Of a stretch of DNA of 64,000 nt, positions 10,243 through 64,000 are shown in pieces. The notes below the pieces were generated by a model. The model had not been told where the DNA came from. It did not search any database and worked only from the letters and a program-made list of their open reading frames with translations. The stretch's first letter is position 1. Each line of letters begins with the position of its first letter. Position numbers and translations under genes: made by a program. The DNA comes from Taiwanofungus camphoratus (Eukaryota; Basidiomycota; Agaricomycetes; Polyporales; Taiwanofungaceae): NCBI GenBank assembly GCA_003999685.1, contig CP021223.1, positions 1,178,001 through 1,242,000 of the forward strand, in the 5' to 3' direction.

Positions 10243-11698
10243 TCAGTACGGCCGGCCTTGATATCTGCGAGGGTCCCTTTCGTCATCGTCATGACTTCGA
10301 CCACGATGATACGTAGAGGGGGTAGGTGATGGGATGAGACGGCCAGCGACATGGTGCTGTGTCTCTCCCACAGGACGCTGAAGTCCATAAGCCTGACTGA
10401 CGCTCGCTGACCCCATCGGAACATATCCTCCTGCAGCAGGGAGGCTAGCAGGGCCTGCTGTATGTGATGAGGCTGGGAAAGGTTCACTAGTAGTTGGGGG
10501 CGCGGAGGACGATGCCTGGCGAGTACTCTGACGCATGGCTTGTCTTTTATTTTGAAACCTACCGAACAAAGCATCACGTAGCGATCAATGGCCACAAATC
10601 CCGATGAAGAGTATCAACAAGCCACTCACCAGATCTGCACACTCCTGGCTGACATGCCTAGTTTCTTTGCGAGTTCGGCTCGCTCTTCAGTAGAAGGAAA
10701 GGCCGTACGATTGTATGTTTCATTGAGAACTTTCAATTGCTCGGCGTCGGCGCGTTTTCGCTTCTTCTTGATAGCAGGTTCCGCGACTGGGGGTTCGGGC
10801 ACGTACGCCGAAGGTGACACCATTGGGGGATTGCGCGGATATGGTGATGGACCATGCATGGACAATCGAGATGGAACGGTCCGGTCAACGGACATGGAGG
10901 CGCGTCTAGGCATCATGCCAGAAGATTCAAATCCTGTGGATGGTACCGGGGGAGGAAGGTTCCTTGGATCGGGTGCAGGTGGATAATAAGATGCAGTAGG
11001 TTGCTGAGAATGTTCTGGGTAAGGAGTGTACGCGGCTGGGAAGCCTGCAGAAGGAGAACGAATGTGAGTTCCAGGGACTATAGTTGGATTAGAAAGGATG
11101 GAATGACCCTGCATTGGGTCGCTGAGCGGTGGCATGGAACGAGAATCATGCGTATCTGCAATCATCGCAGAAGATGTCCGAGACGGATATGTACCATACG
11201 AGGTCTGTGCTGCTTGAAACCTAGGATCCGTAGGAAATGAAGTTGGCTGATGATGTCCAGGTACTGTACGTAAGCAAGGTTGTTTGGTTTGTCACAGCCA
11301 GGAGCGATATGAAAGTGATAAAACTCACTAGGATTAACAGGCCATCCTGATTGGCCGTAGGCTGATATATTGTAATCGGACCGGCTTTGCGTAGGTTCTT
11401 GCTGAAGATATTGATTCGAAGAAAATGAAGGGTCAGGAGCTACATTGGAGACTAGGTTTTGAGTTCTCATTCATACAATGTAAGGCACTTTGAACGAAAA
11501 CGGACCTGGAGAACGTGAGGTTCGAAAAGGTAGATGAAGAGGAGGGAGCACAGTTCGCCCACCCTGTCCTATGTGAAATAGTCCGCGACGCGCGTTGTTG
11601 TTGTTATTGTTGTTGCCTCCACTGGCGGGACTCCTGCGCGGTGTTCGTGGACGAGGAAAGCAACCATAAGAAAAGTGATCGTCCGGCGGGTTCGACAT
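10243..11698 (-). CDS. Homeodomain transcription factor
   Basis: Predicted nuclear factor of 421 residues in four exons (11698-11506, 11451-11329, 11263-10630, 10558-10243), a total that is exactly divisible by three. The homeodomain lies at about residues 265-325. It begins in a basic stretch KKKRKRADAEQLKVLNETY and its recognition helix reads SVQIWFQNKRQAMRQ; an intron splits the invariant Trp codon. The spacing is that of a typical 60-residue homeodomain, not of the atypical HD1/HD2 mating-type proteins. Flanks are disordered: an Asn run near the N-terminus and long Pro/Ser/Tyr-rich stretches, ending in DDDERDPRRYQGRPY. It resembles the Yox1/Hoy1-type homeodomain proteins of fungi; several homeodomain genes regulate fruiting in mushrooms, but I cannot tell whether this is one. 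The start chosen is MSNPPDDHFSYG; an in-frame ATG lies further upstream. Confidence 0.88.
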
Positions 11699-31738: not shown

Positions 31739-33461
31739 CTACGCGTTCCACCCATTGACCTGCTGTGTTGGACTACCCCACCCAGCCCCAGCCCCAGCGC
31801 CTCCCCACCCTCCAGCGCCCGACGACGGGCTCGTACTCCCAGCTCCCCAACCCGGCCCTGATCCCGCTGCAGGGCTCGTGCCCCCAGCGGCCCCCCATCC
31901 GCCTCCTGTCGGGCTCGCCCACCCGCCGGCGCGGGACGGGCTGCCCCATCCACTAGCTGCTCCATTTGCATTCGGGCTCGTCTGTCCCCACCCGCCTGAT
32001 GGTGCACTCCATGCCCCGCCCGCTGCGCCACCACCTGGGCCGTTAGTCGGGGCGAGCGGCTGCTCGCCGCCTGGGAGCACGTCAAGTTCGGGCTCAGACT
32101 TCAGGCCGAGAATAAGGTTAGCGAGTTTTGTTTGAAGTTCTTGTAGGCCCTGGTCAAGACAGGATCAGCAGGTAAGCGAGGCCGATCGAGGGTATAGATG
32201 CTGGGTGTCATGGCCACGAGACATACCTTCATCACGACCTCTTGTGGGCCTAAGCTTCCATCGGTCTCAATCTCCATGTAAAACTTATTCGGACGCGCAT
32301 TAAAGTCGAACTGCTGGTCATCACGTGGTGGTTCTTCCTCTTTCGCGTTTTCGCTTAGGGGCCACTCTGCTCGCTCATCGGACTCGAACCAATAGGATGT
32401 GTGCCGCAGCTTATTATGTGGATCGTATTCGAAAGCGACGGCCGAGCAGGGTGACCACTTCGCGTGCTCTTTTGCAATGCCCTACTCCCAATAAGTATCA
32501 GCCAGAATCTTTTGGATGAGGGGCGACTGGCAGCAGGATCGTGGAAAAAAGGTCAGACCTTTTTGGCGATACAGCGTACTTTCAGCTCCTGCCCCTTACG
32601 CATTTTGCAAATCAGCACAGGAGGGACGCCCGGCTCGTCTGCAACGTCAGACAGGAGGAAAGTATAAGATCCAGTTCATAATTCCAAAGAAGAGCTTGGT
32701 GAGTAAACGCACTTTTGCCGACAGGATGTCCAAAGTTGTCTCCCCGCTTCGCTAGCTCTTCAGATCCGTCATCGTTGTCGTTCCAGTTGATCGCAGGTTG
32801 GCCGAATGCGGGCTGGCGTGGTCCAGTGACATCTAGATGCGCGCTGGTAACGTCCATTGTGTTGAACTCGTCGTGGGACGCGACATTCAGCGTTAGCTCG
32901 ATCGCGCAGTATTGGCACCATGAAATACATGTACAGTCCTATGTTTGCAATAATTCAAATACATAAAATGCGTGAGTTAACGAAGTGAAATGCCAGCCAG
33001 CGATCATCAAATATGACCGACTCAAGAAAAAAGAAGAAGGACAAAACGTACCCGAGTGTACCGCATGCCCTCATCGCAATTGGTGCTCACGAGGGGTATC
33101 TGCCCAAGTCGGTGTGCAATGAATTCGTCTGGTAATACAGTCGTGTTCGTCTCGATCTCCACCATGTCAATGGCTACTTCATAAGTGCAATCGGTAGAAA
33201 GTGTAAGAATTGGAGTGCTCACCAACTGTAGGAATGTCCGCCATCACGACTCGACGGAAAGAGTTTGCAAGCCTATTGAAGACTGTAGTAAATCATGATG
33301 TTCCAGTGACATGATGAGTCTTGTCGGAGGAAAGAGAAATGGCAAGAGAGATTGGGAACGAATGCGTACGCAAGGTCGACATTCTCGAGGACGAAGTTAA
33401 CACGGTCTTTCTTGAGTTCGCGAATGCGCACAATTGGTTCGAGATCTTGGGAGTTCTGCAT
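31739..33461 (-). CDS. RPB3: RNA polymerase II subunit Rpb3 with GW/WG-rich C-terminal tail
   Basis: Core subunit that pairs with Rpb11 in RNA polymerase II assembly. Start [19 protein letters not shown] at 33461. Diagnostic segments: [20 protein letters not shown] (across an intron), [40 protein letters not shown], then the zinc loop [10 protein letters not shown] with C-x-C-x3-C-x2-C spacing as in yeast Rpb3. Later come [20 protein letters not shown] and [20 protein letters not shown]. The protein then carries an extra tail of about 110 residues (31739-32077) made of Gly, Ala, Ser, Pro and nine regularly spaced Trp residues, eight of them as GW ([28 protein letters not shown] and so on). 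Budding-yeast Rpb3 is 318 residues and has no such tail. Multiple exons. The core assignment is secure; the tail's role is unknown. Confidence 0.95.
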
Positions 33462-34037: not shown

Positions 34038-36223
34038 ATGCTGGGTATAAGTAGACAACGCGATTACGAGCAAGAGGGCTATGCGAGGGAACCATTACTG
34101 AACGAAAACGACGAGATTCTTTCCGCACACGATTCCGATGACATCCTCTTTTCTGTAGGCGATGACGAACCAGAAGATTCCTCCCCCCTTAGCAGCCCTG
34201 ACTCGTCTCAACCAAAGACAGGACATAGCGTCCGCTTTCAGGAGGATGTCCAGGTGATTGGTCCTCCGCTCAGGTCGACATTTCAGAGTCGCGAAGCCGG
34301 TGCGTGAGTCGGTTCTATTTACCGTCCTGTGAGGAGGTGTTGAGGCATCGTCCAGAATATGAACTGGACACGGACGACCTGGACGGTGAAACCCTCGTTC
34401 AGCTCGAAACTGCACAACAGCACCGACCACAGCACACAGGACGGCACCGTGAGCAGTCGGTGCCACTTCTCGTCGGGCTCCTGGACTCGGCTTCTGCTCG
34501 CAGAAGTGCGGATGGCAGTCTGCAGTTGGAGCACCGAAATCCAAACGGGGATACACCTGATGAAAACGTCGATTTGGATGCTCTCGCGGCAAAGCAGCTT
34601 GCGGGGGGTGGTATGCTTGACTCCATAGCAAACATGGCCAACTCCATTCTGGGCGCAGGTAATACCCTCACTATAGTCTTGCGTACATGCTGAAGGCGTC
34701 TCTTTTAGGAATCATTGGTAAAATGAGTCATCTCTCTTTGGGATCATAATTGAAGCTGTCTTTGGTTAGGTCTTCCGTATGCCGTGCGTCAGGCGGGCTT
34801 TGTTATGGGTATTTTACTCCTTGTGATTTTGTGCGCGGTGACGGATTGGACAATCCGGCTCATTGTTATCAATGCGAAGCTGAGCGGGCGCAACTCGTAT
34901 ATTGAGATCATGCACTATTGTTTTGGCTCGAGTGGCCGTGCGGCGGTGTCGTTCTTTCAGTTCGCATTCGCTTTCGGAGGTAATTTTCCCCCTAACCTGT
35001 CTAAATTCATATTCACAGTGTCTGCAGGCATGTGCGCGTTCGGCATCATCATCGGTGATTCCCTCCCATCGTTCCTCGCGCAAGTAATCCCTTTTAATCA
35101 TGCCAACCGCCAACAGGGGACACTATACCACATGTCATCCGTTCCGTTTTTCCTAACCTCTACAGCGTCCCTGTCTTGTCCTTGCTCACCAAGCGCCAGT
35201 TCGTCATCGCATTGTGCACCATCGTTGTCTCGTACCCCCTCTCGCTCTATCGTGACATCCACAAGCTCGCGCGTGCATCCGCACTCGCGCTTGTTGGTAT
35301 GATTATCATCGTCATCGCCGTGCTCGTCGATGGCCCGCGCGTTGCGCCAGAGCTCAAGGGGGACCAGAATCAACGCTTTACAGTGCTTGGTCCTGGCGTT
35401 TTCCAGGCCATTGGCGTCATCAGCTTCGCATTTGTGTGCCATCATAATTCATTATTGATATACGGGAGCCTGCGCACACCAACGATGGACCGGTTTGCGA
35501 AGGTGACGCATATATCGACTTTGGTGTCGCTCGTGGCGTGCTGTACCCTGGCGATCTCGGCGTATTTAGTATTCACGAACAAGACGCAGGGAAACATTCT
35601 AAACAACTTTGCCCCGGTCAGTTAGGCTGAATGACCACATTGAGTGAAGCTGTGTTGACGTATTATGTGCGTAGGACGACACATTGATTAATGTTGCGCG
35701 TTTCTGTTTCGGGCTAAACATGTTCACGACTCTTCCACTCGAGCTCTTTGTCTGCCGAGAGGTACATTTTACTATTTCTTGCTTCTCACACAGGATTGAA
35801 ATGCAATTCTGCTCAGGTGGTCGAGCAGTACTTCTTTCCGCACGAAACATTCAACATGCAGCGGCACGTCTTTTTCACGACCGTCATTCTCTGCTCCTCT
35901 ATGCTCAGTATGTATTCGAACCTTGTCTGTATTGGCGTGTATTGGCGTGTCTTACCTGTCGTTTGTCACAAGTTGCGCTTGTTACTTGCGATCTCGGTGT
36001 CATGCTCGAGATCACTGGCGGTGCATCCGCCACTGCGCTTGCGTTCATCTTTCCCGCCGCCTGCTACATGCGGCTCGCTGACCAAGGTGTGCCATGGTAT
36101 GCACGCAGCAAGCTCCCGGCGCTCGCATGTGTCGCATTCGGCGCGATCGTCATGGCGATATCTCTCTTCCTTGCGCTCGGAAAGGTGTGGACACCAGAAG
36201 GCGGTGCACGGATATGCGTATAG
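34038..36223 (+). CDS. AVT-family (AAAP) amino-acid transporter, AVT2/SLC38-like
   Basis: Moves neutral amino acids with protons across a membrane, by analogy with yeast vacuolar AVT proteins. A long hydrophilic N-terminus of about 190 residues (acidic patches, a Ser cluster PEDSSPLSSPDSSQP) precedes the transporter core, which begins GMLDSIANMANSILGAG, the hallmark first helix of the AAAP family, and continues IGLPYAVRQAGFVMGILLL. Other diagnostic pieces are FGIIIGDTIPHVIRSVFPN (after removing a 66-base intron from about 35055), VIALCTIVVSYPLSLYRDI, GVISFAFVCHHNSLLIY and GASATALAFIFPAACY. About 11 membrane segments, several introns, stop TAG at 36221. The GAGIIG and GDTIPH pattern is closest to AVT2-type proteins; substrate and membrane are inferred. 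Confidence 0.9.
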
Positions 36224-50051: not shown

Positions 50052-52072
50052 CTACCACTTGACCGCGAGCCCAACGACCTCGCTTTCTACCGCTCTGTAC
50101 TGTGTGCGGAACAGCTTTCGTCGCCGTGCCTCGGCCTCGTCGTCCATTTCGACCGCCCAGTGCCCCTTGGCGCCGTCCAAGGCCTGCGGCCGACACAGCT
50201 CGAACAAGACCTTGAGCGCGAGACGATCTGCACTGCCAGTCTCCCCAACGTCATTCACGCAACCATCCAGGGCGGGCATCTGAGGCGGGGGCGACGGTGG
50301 GGGCGTGGGCAGCCCGCGCCAGTACGCCTCTTCGACCTTCCTCGTCCACTCCTTGTCGCCCCACTTCGCGCCGGGCCCCGGGAGCGCGCCGTCCTCCTCG
50401 GTCTTCACGCCGCTCTCCGCCCAGTCCCGCTCGTACCCCTCCTCGTCCACCGCCTTCTGCGTCGCCAGGGCGTGCGCCGGCGGCTTGAGCTGGCCGCCGC
50501 CGTTCACGCACCCGCCGGGGCACGCCATTACCTCCACGTAGTCGTAGCCCGTCTCCACGCCCGTGCCAGCGCCAGCGTCGCTCCCCCTCGCCCCCCCGCG
50601 CGCCCGCCCCCGCACGCGCGCCATCCGCCCCGCGGCCCCGCGCCCGACCTGCACGCCCGCGTCGCGCCCGACGCGCCGCACCACGTTCTGCAGGTTGCGG
50701 AACCCGTAGCACTTGGCGCCGCGGAACACGGGCGCGCGCGTGTCGCGCTCCGCGAGGGTGTGCTCCTCGTAGTCCGGCGTGCGCACCGTGCGCACCGAGA
50801 GCGCGAGCGCGGGCGCGGGCGCGGGTGCGCGGAGCGCCGAGATAAGCGAGTGCAGATACGATCCGGAGCTCGTGCCCGCGTGCGCTATCAGCGCGGGCAA
50901 CCCAATCTCGCGCGCATCTCGGGTCCGCGGCGGTGCGTCGTCTTCGCAATCGACGGGCACCGACAGGTCCCAGCGCTTCTCGCGCATCAGCCGCTCGAGC
51001 TCGCCCGTCGTGAGCACGCAGTCGACGTCCCGCGTGGCGTACACGTCGTTGTAAAAGTCCTGCCGCGACGCCTCGAGCTTCTTGTCGTAGCACGGCATGA
51101 CCGTGACGTGGTATATCTGGTCAGGCCTGTCCCGGGCATCAGATAGCCGGACCTGGCGGGATACGCGGACGGCACGTACCTCTTGTGCCACTTGGGGCCC
51201 ATCCACTCTTTGACCAGCGTGCCCATGACCTGCTGCGGGCTCTTGGTGCAGCTGATGAACGGCAGCATCTCCGGGTGCGTCTTCTCGGCATAGCATATCC
51301 AGCCGGGGCAGGCGCTCGCCAGCATCGGCAGCCTGCCCTCGCCGCGCCTGCGCTCGGAGAACTCCTTTGCGTGCTCGAGCAGCGCGATATGGCGCGCGAA
51401 CGTCGTGTCGAACACGTGTGCGAAGCCGAGCGTCCGTGTGCAGAAGACCTCGACCCGCCGGAGGATGCGCGCCAGGCTGACGGGCCGCGCGCTGCTGGAG
51501 GAGACGGACGCCGCGAGGGACGCGAGGCTCTGCGGCGCGATGGACAGCACGGGCGTCTTGTGCGCTGGCGACGGCGGCTGCGGGTTGTTCGCGAGGAAGT
51601 TCAGGACCTCCGTGTGGGATTGCAGCGTGATCAGGACTGACTCGGCCGATGTGATGCAGCCGCTGGGCGCGCATGAGCTTCGCGCGGTGTCTGTTCTTTT
51701 CAGGGTGACGTACCTACATGCCAAACAATCGTTCAGGCTGATTTGTGCCGTCTCGAGCTTCTTTCCTGACTTGGTGGATGCCGTTCCGTTCACCGAGACC
51801 TCGTAGTAGGATCCGCTGGAGTCCACTTGTATTTGCGTCTAATAGCGCGATCAATCAGAAAGCAATAATTGCGAATCAAGGAACTGTACCAACGGAGGCT
51901 GCACCGGGGTCCAAAGGGTCAGTCTTGTTCGTCTGCTCGACAGGCTTGATGCATGCTTGCGAAGGAGTGAGAAAGTCGTTAAGATCGGTCAGAGTCTACC
52001 GCACACGAGTGAGCAGATTATCCCCAGTCACGACAAGCGGGACGCACATACCAAAGCACCAGAGAAAGCCAT
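50052..52072 (-). CDS. NAR1: Cytosolic Fe-S cluster assembly factor Nar1 (hydrogenase-like)
   Basis: Component of the cytosolic iron-sulfur assembly (CIA) machinery that links the early scaffold to the targeting complex. Start MAFSGAL at 52072. N-terminal cluster ligands: a Cys in SQACIKPVE and LNDCLACSGCITSAE (CxxCxxC, completed across an intron near 51700). Hydrogenase-like core motifs: LSIAPQSLASLAAS, LASACPGWICYAEKTHPEML, TKSPQQVMGTLVK, VMPCYDKKLEASR, DVDCVLTTGELERL and EVMACPGGCVNGGGQ, which together supply the second set of Cys ligands. The region after PVFRGAKCYGFRNLQNVVRR holds a Gly/Arg-rich insert of about 45 residues that looks lineage-specific. Most of it is one long, very GC-rich exon, which creates long spurious antisense frames. 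Stop TAG at 50052. Confidence 0.95.
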
Positions 52073-60005: not shown

Positions 60006-63000
60006 GACTTGTCGCCCCGATGATCGAACCCTCAGCGTCTGACCCCTCTTGTTCTGATTTGACCCTGGCTCGTGGCCGGAGGGTGTCGGACTGGTCAGAA
60101 AGGATATCGTTGTTGCTGGTATGCATGCAGTCATGACTCCAATGTCCCATTTGTCGGCATTGTATGCAGAAGGGGGAGTTCCCCCCACTGGTTGAGCTAG
60201 GGGCACCACCAGTGATAGAGTTGGACGGGCCATCACTGGCAGAAGGGGCCTGTGTTCTGGCCTGATGTCGTGGTGGTATCAGGTTGTCTATGACATCCAT
60301 TAGAGGGGAGCGTATGAGGACGGCGAGCAGGTTGCAGGCTGCTCGGCTTGCATCTATGTGGAGAGTGGCCAACTGCCACGTTGTCAGGTTGTTGCCATTT
60401 GGCCCAAGGCCTGTTTGCCTTCGTTCGAGTGTGGCCAAGCTGCCAGCCTCTCACGCGACAATGACCAGTGTCCGGTAAATGTTCGTCAACTCCCACAGGT
60501 CTGGCCAAGCCAACAGCCGGGTGTCTATTTCTGGCCATAGATCAGCATCCACCAGGGCCCAGGCAGTGCAATGCGCAAGCCTCCACTGATTGTACTGATC
60601 GTCGGACACTGCCAATGGGGGCACTGTCTTCTGAATGTTTTGGTATGGGTGTGCGCGTGTGTGCCTTGCTCGTACTCGGGGTGTGAGGTCTCGTACCCTT
60701 GCTGTGCTGTGGTTCAAGTAGACAGATAGCTGTTGGGGATCTGTATGAGTGGACATCGTAGTGCCGTGCCTCTGCTGAATGTCGGCTGTATGCAGCTCTG
60801 CAGATCCGGGTGTAGCAGGCGTTGACCTGGGGCCTTGTAGGCAACCTGTTGACCTTCTTATATTCTTCCAGAAGGTCGGGCAAGTTCATTAAGTCCGCCT
60901 CAGACTGCCATGTATTAGCAGAGTTTGGCCATCCAACCCATTTGATCAGGAACTGCCATTTCCCACACTGGGCACGATGCCCGTGAATGGCTTCGACTTC
61001 GTATTCTTCATCGCCATCGACTAATTCTGGGGGCGGCCTTGTGAAGTTCGGACCATGTTCCTTGGTTTCCCTGTATGGTGTCAACAGCGATGCATGGAAT
61101 ACTGGATGTATCTTCCATGCCCTTGGTAGCTGAAGCTTGTACGTTAGCGGTCCTAGGACTTCGGCTATCTTGAGTGGTCCTACTCACTTTGGGGAAAACT
61201 TCCTCAGGGTCTTTAGGCGGAGGTTAGTTGCTTCTAGCCAAACCTGCGTCCCCTTCTCAAATGGCTGCCATATGGTTCAAGCCCTTTCTGTCATCAACTG
61301 CACAGCTAGATCCTGTGCTGCCAGTGCTTCCTTTCTGAACTCTCTGATGGCTAAGAGTCGGTCCTTGATTGATGGGTACCTTTCCGATGCCTTTGGTGAT
61401 CCGATTGCCTTTGGATCATATCCCATAATCAGCTTAAATGGTGACTCCCTTCTTCCAGCATGCGGCACCTGATTGTGTGCGAATTCAAATTCTGGGATAA
61501 ACTTTGCCCAGTTGTGAGGATTGTTGGCACACAGGATCCTCCATGCAGCTTCGAGTTCCTGATTGACACGCTCAGTGCTTCCATCAGACTGCAGATGGTA
61601 GGCAGTGCTCATGGCCGCTTTGACACCTGTCAGTTTGCACCACTCCCGGAACACTGTTGCTGCGAACTGTGGGCCTCGGTCCGATATGATTCTGTTGGGT
61701 AGCCCATATCGCCGGTAAATGTTCTGATGGAGTGCCTCGGCTGTTCCTACTGCATCGATGGTTTTGTTGCAAGGAACCAGGACTATCCCTTTGGACAGTT
61801 CTCGGTCCACCACTACCATTAGTGCGTCAGATCCACGCGATTCAGGTAGGTCTGTGATGAAGTCGACTGAGATGTGTGAGAATGGCCTGGAGTTCGGTTC
61901 CATTGAGATGGGTTGCATTGGTGGTCGTGTTGGACGCGTGTTGACCTTATTCTCCTGGCATTTGGCGCAGCCTTTCACGTAGTTTTCGATAAACGTGGTC
62001 ATGTCATTCCAGAACCAGTCTCTTCTGGCGATGGCAAATGTTCCCTGTGCTCCTGGATGGGCCATAGCTGGGGTGTCATGGCAAAGTCGAATAACTTCTC
62101 TGCGCAAGTCGTCACTAGGGGGTACGTAGATTCGATTTTTGTACAGAATCAATCCATCCTGCACATCCCAATCGGCCAATGTTGTGTGCGCAAATCCAGT
62201 GCCCTTGAATGGTGGTACTTTCCCCCGTTTTAAAGCGTCAATCGTCTCGATGACCATGCTGTCACGACTTCGGTGTTGCCAGATGCGCTCGATGAGGTCA
62301 ACATTAACTGCCTTTGCAAACAGTGTTTCTGGTAAGAGGACAATGTCCTCATTGTCCCTCTCACCCCCTGGATGTCCTGGTCTACGTGATAGGGCGTCCG
62401 CCACTACGAGTTGTTTACCCTTTCGATTCTCCAGTAGTAAGTCAAACTGCGATAGCAGCAGTTGCCATCGTGCCTGGTGTCGTGTTAGCCGTTGGGCTTC
62501 TCTGAAGTATGTCAGGTTCTTGTGGTCCGTTATAACTGTGACCGGGTGCTTTGCGCCCTCCAGGTGGTGACGCCATTCCTCAAGTGCTCGTACGATTGCC
62601 AGTAGTTCTCTATCATAGATCTGATAGTTCCGTTCTGCTTCCTTCAGCGATTTTGAAAGGAATGCCACCGGGTGAAGTTTCCCATCAGGGCCCTCCTGTT
62701 GCAGTACTGCATCTGTTGCAACCAGTGAGGCATCGGCCTCAATTACAAACGGTTTCTCAGGGTCGGGCATGGTGAGTACTGGGGCCTCACAGAAATGGCG
62801 TTTAAGTGCCTCGAAGGCTGCCTGGCACTTGTTCGACCAGTTTCAAGCTACCCCCTTCTTCTTAAGTGCATTCAGGGGGTGGGCGATGTTCGAGAATCTG
62901 CGTATAAACCGTCAATAGTAATTGGCGAGGCCCAGGAATCGTTCCACGTCCTTGACTTTGGTCGGTATGGGCCATTCATCAATGCCCTGCAGCTTGCCAG

Positions 63001-64000
63001 TGTCCATATGGATGTGGCCCGGTGTGATGGTCATTCCCAGAAACTCAACTTCTTGTACATCGAAGGCACACTTTTCCGGTTTTACAAAGAGGTCCATCTC
63101 CTGCAAGCGTTGCAGTACCCGGCGTGTCCGTTCTCGGTGGATGGTAGCATCATCGGAGTAGATCAGGATGTCGTCCATGTAAATGGCTAACCATCCTTCC
63201 GCGAGCATGTCTTGAAACCCATCATTCATAAGCCGCTGGAAGGTGGCCGGGGCATTGCACATGCCGAAGAACATTACTGTTGGTTCAACTAGCTTCTTGG
63301 TTCCGTGGTGATTCACCATGAACACTCCCTTCCACTGGTCGCCCTCCCTGATGCGTACATTGTTGTAGCCATTTTGGAGGTCCAGCTTCATGAATATGGT
63401 TGCCTTTTGCAGGTTGTCGATGAGCTCTCCAATGAGTGGAAGTGGGTATGCATCCTTTACCGTGCTGTTGTTGAGGTATCGGTAATCCTGACAGGGCCTG
63501 AGTGTACCATCCTTTTTTGCCACAAAGAATGCTGGGGAGGCCATGGGTGACTTCGAGTCCCGTAGATATCCTTTCGCCAGGTTCTTGTCAAGGAACTTAT
63601 CCATCTCCGCTTGTTCAGCCAGGGATAATGCAATTACCCCACACTTTCTAGGTACAAAGTTAGGCTTTGTCTCCACAGCGTGGTCCCATGGTCTTGAATC
63701 AGGGAATCGAGCAGCGGCCGCCTTTTCAAAGCGGTCCCGGTAGTCGAGCAAGTACTCAGGCACCAGGTCTTCAATCTGTGGCCCCTTCTCAGGGGGTGTC
63801 AGTGGTGCACTTGTCTGCCTGGTGGTGGCTATGAACCATCTTGAGCCCTTTACATGGCTGTTCCGATCTAACGATGGTTGAGACTTCTTGGGTGGCTGCG
63901 GCAGGCCCATTTCATCGAATAGGGGTTCCGGTTGATCGTTGAACATGCCTAAGACCCCTTCTCCCCTTGTATAAGCACATAGGATGGTTTCTAGCTCGTC

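Follow-up and report, generated by a model that had tools for sequence, protein, structure and literature searches.

A Trp- and Ser-Pro-containing tail on RNA polymerase II subunit Rpb3 of Taiwanofungus camphoratus looks more like the tails of Spt5 and Spt6 than a docking site for RNA-silencing proteins

Introduction

The closest described system is the C-terminal domain (CTD) of Spt5, which in Schizosaccharomyces pombe forms an array of 18 TPAWNSGSK copies that is phosphorylated by Cdk9 and, in the account of its partners given in PMC10659198, binds Rtf1 in its phosphorylated state and capping as well as 3'-end factors in the unphosphorylated state. A second Trp-binder is Not9/Caf40 of the Ccr4-Not complex: according to a prediction in PMC12819147, its aromatic pockets accommodate a Trp motif that belongs to a disordered protein of S. 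pombe, and the same source describes the peptide groove and Trp pockets of Not9 as invariant in eukaryotes at many residues. Another subunit, Not5, is reported to link transcription and translation (PMC4207488).

Argonaute hooks represent a second described class of Trp-containing repeats. In plants, GW/WG repeats of this kind have been described for NRPE1, SPT5L, and the Pol II elongation factor SPT6L (PMC10991848). The Trp residues of TNRC6 sites are described as lying ten or more residues apart (PMC9262622), and the residues of AGO2 that were altered in pocket mutants are P590, K660, and R688 (PMC11336974). With respect to fungi, an Ago1-Gwo1 P-body complex is described for the basidiomycete Cryptococcus (PMC6643885), and a survey from 2025 reports a distinct conservation of the fungal TRP3 pockets as well as GW sites of fungal Argonautes that are remarkably variable and do not belong to a shared repertoire, which leaves room for sites of an unknown kind (PMC12477606). 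Saccharomyces cerevisiae and Ustilago maydis are described as having lost RNAi (PMC4778953).

Our literature search retrieved no publication that joins Rpb3, a C-terminal tail, and Argonaute and, among the papers listed, none that has an Rpb3 tail as its subject; the main text of PMC13289920 does not mention Rpb3. Here we describe a long tail on Rpb3 of T. camphoratus that looks, from its motifs, more like the tails of Spt5 and Spt6 than a docking site for RNA-silencing proteins.

Results

The Rpb3 gene and its surroundings

The window, i.e., the entire stretch of 64,000 nucleotides that was analysed (C4:1178001-1242000 of a genome of 33.2 Mb in 15 contigs), carries on its minus strand (33461-31739) an Rpb3 gene whose seven exons encode a complete protein of 411 aa (Table 1). 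The exon model is based on splice sites and homology, and all introns are of the GT..AG type with lengths of 49-113 bases. The protein is the Pol II subunit Rpb3: it contains the domains PF01193 (RNA_pol_L, E 4.7e-20) and PF01000 (RNA_pol_A_bac, E 6.1e-15), and its top PDB matches are solved Rpb3 chains that align along the core (E 9.4e-85). The PDB listing shows molecule names only; we take the matched chains to be those of human, S. cerevisiae, S. pombe, and Komagataella, and the best-matching chains for both Rpb3 and PIWI of this genome to be fungal.

Table 1. Positions of the Rpb3 exons, the tail, and related features
Feature	Position	Strand	Basis
Rpb3 exon 1, with start ATG at 33461	33370..33461	-	GT..AG introns; PDB Rpb3 match
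Rpb3 exon 2	33223..33272	-	splice sites and homology
Rpb3 exon 3	33052..33173	-	acceptor picked so as to yield IPTVAIDM
Rpb3 exon 4	32713..32938	-	splice sites and homology
Rpb3 exon 5	32559..32638	-	splice sites and homology
Rpb3 exon 6	32227..32481	-	splice sites and homology
Rpb3 exon 7: conserved C-terminal helix, tail, stop codon	31739..32149	-	splice sites and homology
Rpb3 GW/WG and Ser-Pro tail, 113 aa (9 W, 8 GW, 6 SP)	31742..32080	-	composition count on translation
Rpb3 stretch fitting GW[GA]xP..GW[GA] (Spt5 counterpart GWGSPSRPSGGW)	31917..31951 = C4:1209917-1209951	-	genome-wide DNA pattern
Putative Spt6 C-terminal exon	L038 924-1376, G000:C3 about 1573923-1574375	same strand as Spt6 SH2 pieces	position just downstream

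Three further regions of the minus strand of the window contain recognizable domains, i.e., an ORF with a homeodomain (10629-11291, E 5.7e-12), an ORF with the C-terminal domain of the iron-only hydrogenase large subunit (50055-51713, E 7.4e-27), which we presume may be a Nar1-type Fe-S assembly protein, and two ORFs with reverse transcriptase, RNase H, integrase zinc-binding, and integrase core domains that represent an LTR-type retroelement (61280-64000). The GC content lies mostly at 0.55-0.71 between positions 36000 and 57000, compared with about 0.43-0.54 before and about 0.49-0.55 after this region. An Rfam scan of the window returned no matches.

A tail with more GW motifs and a more even spacing than expected by chance

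The sequence-only reading had placed nine evenly spaced Trp residues, eight of them as GW, behind the conserved Rpb3 core, and both the position of this tail and the counts are borne out by the gene model. Because the tail continues the conserved helix inside a single exon (32149-31739), its reading frame is fixed by homology, and an early stop would therefore require an additional, undetected intron. If the last intron were retained, the frame would shift and both helix and tail would be lost. The stop codon (31741-31739) follows directly on the C-terminus NGWNA. The 113 residues of the tail comprise 37 Gly, 20 Ala, 14 Ser, 12 Pro, and 9 Trp (73% G/A/S/P) with a single acidic and a single basic residue, so that the charge is near nil, and from this composition the tail is probably disordered. 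Besides the eight GW there are six WG and six [ST]P motifs, every one of the latter being SP, and the gaps from one Trp to the next are 7, 14, 9, 8, 16, 14, 9, and 10.

Residue shuffles of the tail rarely reproduced these features: at least eight GW were obtained in 9 of 20,000 shuffles, a Trp spacing as even as that of the tail in 24, and at least six [ST]P in 136. In stop-free order-1 Markov DNAs, eight GW were never reached (0/5,000) and nine Trp in 79 of 5,000 cases. Trp accounts for 9 of the 30 residues other than G/A/S/P, compared with 2.9% expected from one-step codon neighbours, i.e., about ten times its share; one-step changes from the G/A/S/P codons of the tail would favour Arg, Val, Glu, and Asp far above Trp. 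A simple binomial puts this excess at about 1e-7, a rough guide that treats the sites as independent. Direct repeats of 14 bases or more are absent from the underlying DNA, and a single weak tandem run lies at 31786-31819, so that the GW repeats do not represent a recent expansion of the DNA. A sequence search of the own genome, in which three candidates were scored, yielded no paralogue of the tail.

Rpb3 tails elsewhere

Solved Rpb3 chains differ in their extension past the matched core, which is longest in S. cerevisiae (about 54 residues), followed by Komagataella (39), S. pombe (30), and human (3; species as presumed above), and because of this variation in length the Rpb3 tail is regarded as evolutionarily labile. 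The Rpb3 of S. cerevisiae (318 aa; C-terminus GNTGSGGYDNAW) likewise continues beyond the conserved helix and ends in GGYDNAW, comparable to the NGWNA end of the T. camphoratus protein, but its extension of about 54 residues contains one Trp and no GW, in contrast to nine Trp in 113 aa here. The GGYDNAW end is kept although RNAi has been lost in this yeast. Searches for Rpb3 relatives in prokaryote and virus contig collections gave 12 peptide-pattern matches, of which none was confirmed, and a degenerate GIAKEHAKW pattern had no match in either; these collections are uninformative on mushrooms.

Related motifs in Spt5, Spt6, and other ORFs of the genome

Spt5 was located through the single NGN locus of the genome. 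Its C-terminal ORF contains TPAWN..RTPNPY repeats followed by TWGGATPGRSNWGAASPKPNNNNPGWGSPSRPSGGWGDGSSSAW, and a further VSG ahead of the stop was taken as the start of an intron. The nearest match to the Rpb3 tail within these repeats is GWGSPSRPSGGWG, and the two proteins have in common the exact 7-mer GWGSPSR, followed by GGW. Sharing of a 7-mer arose by chance in 0.12% of residue shuffles, in 0.17% if GW blocks were kept, and in 1.0% if GWG/GW/SP blocks were kept. The DNA pattern for GW[GA]xP..GW[GA] has four matches across 33 Mb. Two of these lie in Rpb3, where they are present by construction, because the pattern was derived from this protein; the others are in Spt5 and in the ORF L019. 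The reversed pattern has no match. A double [ST]PAW pattern occurs genome-wide in Spt5 alone (twice), and the Rpb3 tail contains neither TPAW nor RTPNPY units.

An ORF located 3' of the Spt6 SH2 pieces on the same strand contains TP/TPNPY-type units and ends with MQQSSGWGSQSGW (...SSGWGSQSGW) before the stop. It was assigned to the Spt6 C-terminus by position, and the ends of both Spt5 and Spt6 represent single ORFs and not full gene models. The Rpb3 tail also has the 6-mer AGWGSP in common with L019, which is nearly the length of the Spt5 match, and the GW motif is therefore not exclusive to elongation proteins.

Two other patterns were applied to the genome. A triple-GW pattern had ten matches (reversed control, one), namely, four in Rpb3, one in the ORF L025, and five at other places, where the ORFs in the GW frame look like incidental G-rich DNA and were discarded. 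A looser single-motif pattern was too frequent to be useful (86 matches; reversed control, 15), and 44 of its matches trace back to one 17-mer, GGATGGGGCTGGCCCAC, whose 44 copies are spread over the contigs of the genome and probably stem from a dispersed repeat.

Argonaute proteins and further GW-containing ORFs

The genome contains at least seven PIWI loci, and six of its places match RdRP. Pocket residues were read off after aligning the PIWI pieces of this genome to AGO2 and QDE-2. P590 of AGO2 is kept in none of five scorable own proteins (Lys in four, Leu in one), K660 in none of six, one of which was scored through a gapped alignment, and R688 in one of seven (C13); a cognate Argonaute with the hAGO2-type Trp pockets, as judged by these three residues, was not seen among the scorable proteins. 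QDE-2 retains R688 but not P590 and K660. Pocket 3 is partly retained, with P700 present in all six scorable own proteins and C691 in two of six. With respect to the tail itself, repeated GW/WG motifs in a probably disordered region, the hallmark of Argonaute hooks, are present (8 GW and 6 WG in 113 aa), and four of the eight gaps between neighbouring Trp reach ten residues; non-neighbouring pairs could also serve.

Two ORFs elsewhere look more like classical Argonaute hooks than the Rpb3 tail. L019 (G000:C3:2519511-2519569, minus; 649 aa), a candidate Argonaute partner, contains 17 Trp, of which many stand in acidic contexts, and seven GW motifs; L025 (G000:C2:2322758-2322823, plus; 276 aa), a second candidate GW platform, has DDGWGPGGNN-type repeats in acidic contexts with a Trp spacing of 10 residues. 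A Pfam search with both returned no family above the cut-off. Two nearly alike Argonaute-like genes, L013 and L014, are located about 9 kb apart (G000:C14, about 1284 and 1294 kb), and L014 has an in-frame TAG within its PIWI stretch.

Discussion

The reading that we favour, albeit tentatively, is that the Rpb3 tail serves as a Trp/Ser-Pro recruitment platform of the Spt5 C-terminal repeat (CTR) kind on a core subunit of Pol II. Like the TPAWNSGSK array of S. pombe and the repeats of the own Spt5, it combines Trp with Ser/Thr-Pro units on the elongation complex, with nine Trp, six SP, and GWGSPSR in common with the latter. The differences are that the host of the tail is the core subunit Rpb3 and not the NGN/KOW protein Spt5, and that it is Gly-rich, lacks the TPAW consensus, and offers SP instead of TP sites. 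The match to Spt5 is short and both sequences are of low complexity, which counts against this reading.

As a platform of the Spt5 kind, the tail would be a disordered, multivalent array of short linear motifs in which (S/G)GW(G/A)-S-P units place Trp and sites of proline-directed phosphorylation on Rpb3, parallel to the TPAW/GWGSP units of Spt5 and the GW end of the putative Spt6 exon. A shared reader that moves with the elongation complex might then bind the Trp residues, and phosphorylation of Ser-Pro would tune this binding. Such a reader may be one of the capping or 3'-end factors recognizing the Spt5 CTR, or else Ccr4-Not through the Trp pockets of Not9/Caf40; the genome has a CNOT9-like Caf40 gene, whose joined pieces (209 aa) match CNOT9 with E 1.9e-98. 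The stronger claim, i.e., a single GW-(G/A)-S-(P/Q) motif that occurs in copies on Rpb3, Spt5, and Spt6 and is recognized everywhere by the same Trp-binding partner, appears rather unlikely to us. Mutation of the Spt5 CTD in S. pombe is described as altering heterochromatin in both an RNAi-dependent and an RNAi-independent manner, and a CTR-like tail could therefore touch silencing without any binding of Argonaute.

The main rival, which we consider somewhat unlikely, is a weakly constrained, disordered extension rich in Gly, Ala, Ser, and Pro that has no specific partner, acts as a solubility or spacer tail, and tolerates Trp as a by-product of G-rich DNA. The composition fits this explanation, as do the 11 TGG in a second, non-coding frame of the G-rich strand, the 79 of 5,000 Markov DNAs that reach nine Trp, and the variable overhang of Rpb3 past its core in the four presumed species. 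The number of GW, their even spacing, and the excess of Trp over codon neighbours are nevertheless each unlikely by chance, and the GWGSPSR..GGW segment is found again in Spt5. A role of the Trp residues as aromatic stickers, whose multivalent contacts concentrate the polymerase in condensates and need no dedicated reader, would account for their regular placement within a Gly/Ser-rich spacer and for the echo of this arrangement on Spt5 and Spt6, but the shared order of GWGSPSR is not needed for stickers, and we consider this role quite improbable.

Of the two functions named in the sequence-only reading, the Argonaute hook has lost ground, whereas the repeat platform gained from the exact 7-mer and the following GGW in the own Spt5 and from the SSGWGSQSGW end of the putative Spt6 exon. 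As a hook, the GW repeats would bind the Trp pockets of PIWI domains and tether siRNA-loaded Argonaute to Pol II for the purpose of co-transcriptional silencing. The hooks of NRPE1, SPT5L, SPT6L, and GW182/TNRC6 likewise consist of GW/WG repeats in a tail, and those of plants are likewise borne by the transcription machinery (PMC10991848); the genome has PIWI loci and RdRP matches, P700 is kept throughout the scorable proteins and R688 in C13, and the fungal TRP3 pockets are reported to follow a distinct conservation (PMC12477606). Against these points stand the absence of P590 and K660 wherever they could be scored and the retention of R688 in one of seven PIWI proteins, a spacing in which half of the gaps between neighbouring Trp agree with that described for TNRC6 (PMC9262622), the nearly uncharged tail, and the existence of more hook-like ORFs (L019 and L025) in the same genome. 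An Argonaute role for Rpb3 is thus possible, but the motifs point elsewhere, and we judge the hook decidedly improbable.

Should the tail act in the manner of the Spt5 CTR, Pol II of these fungi would have a repeat platform within its core, beyond Rpb1 and the removable factors, and deletion of the tail or exchange of its Trp residues for Ala would provide a simple genetic handle on the role of Trp/Ser-Pro repeats in transcription elongation. With a shared motif and a single reader, Rpb3 would add to the polymerase core a second platform of the CTD kind that is permanent on every Pol II.
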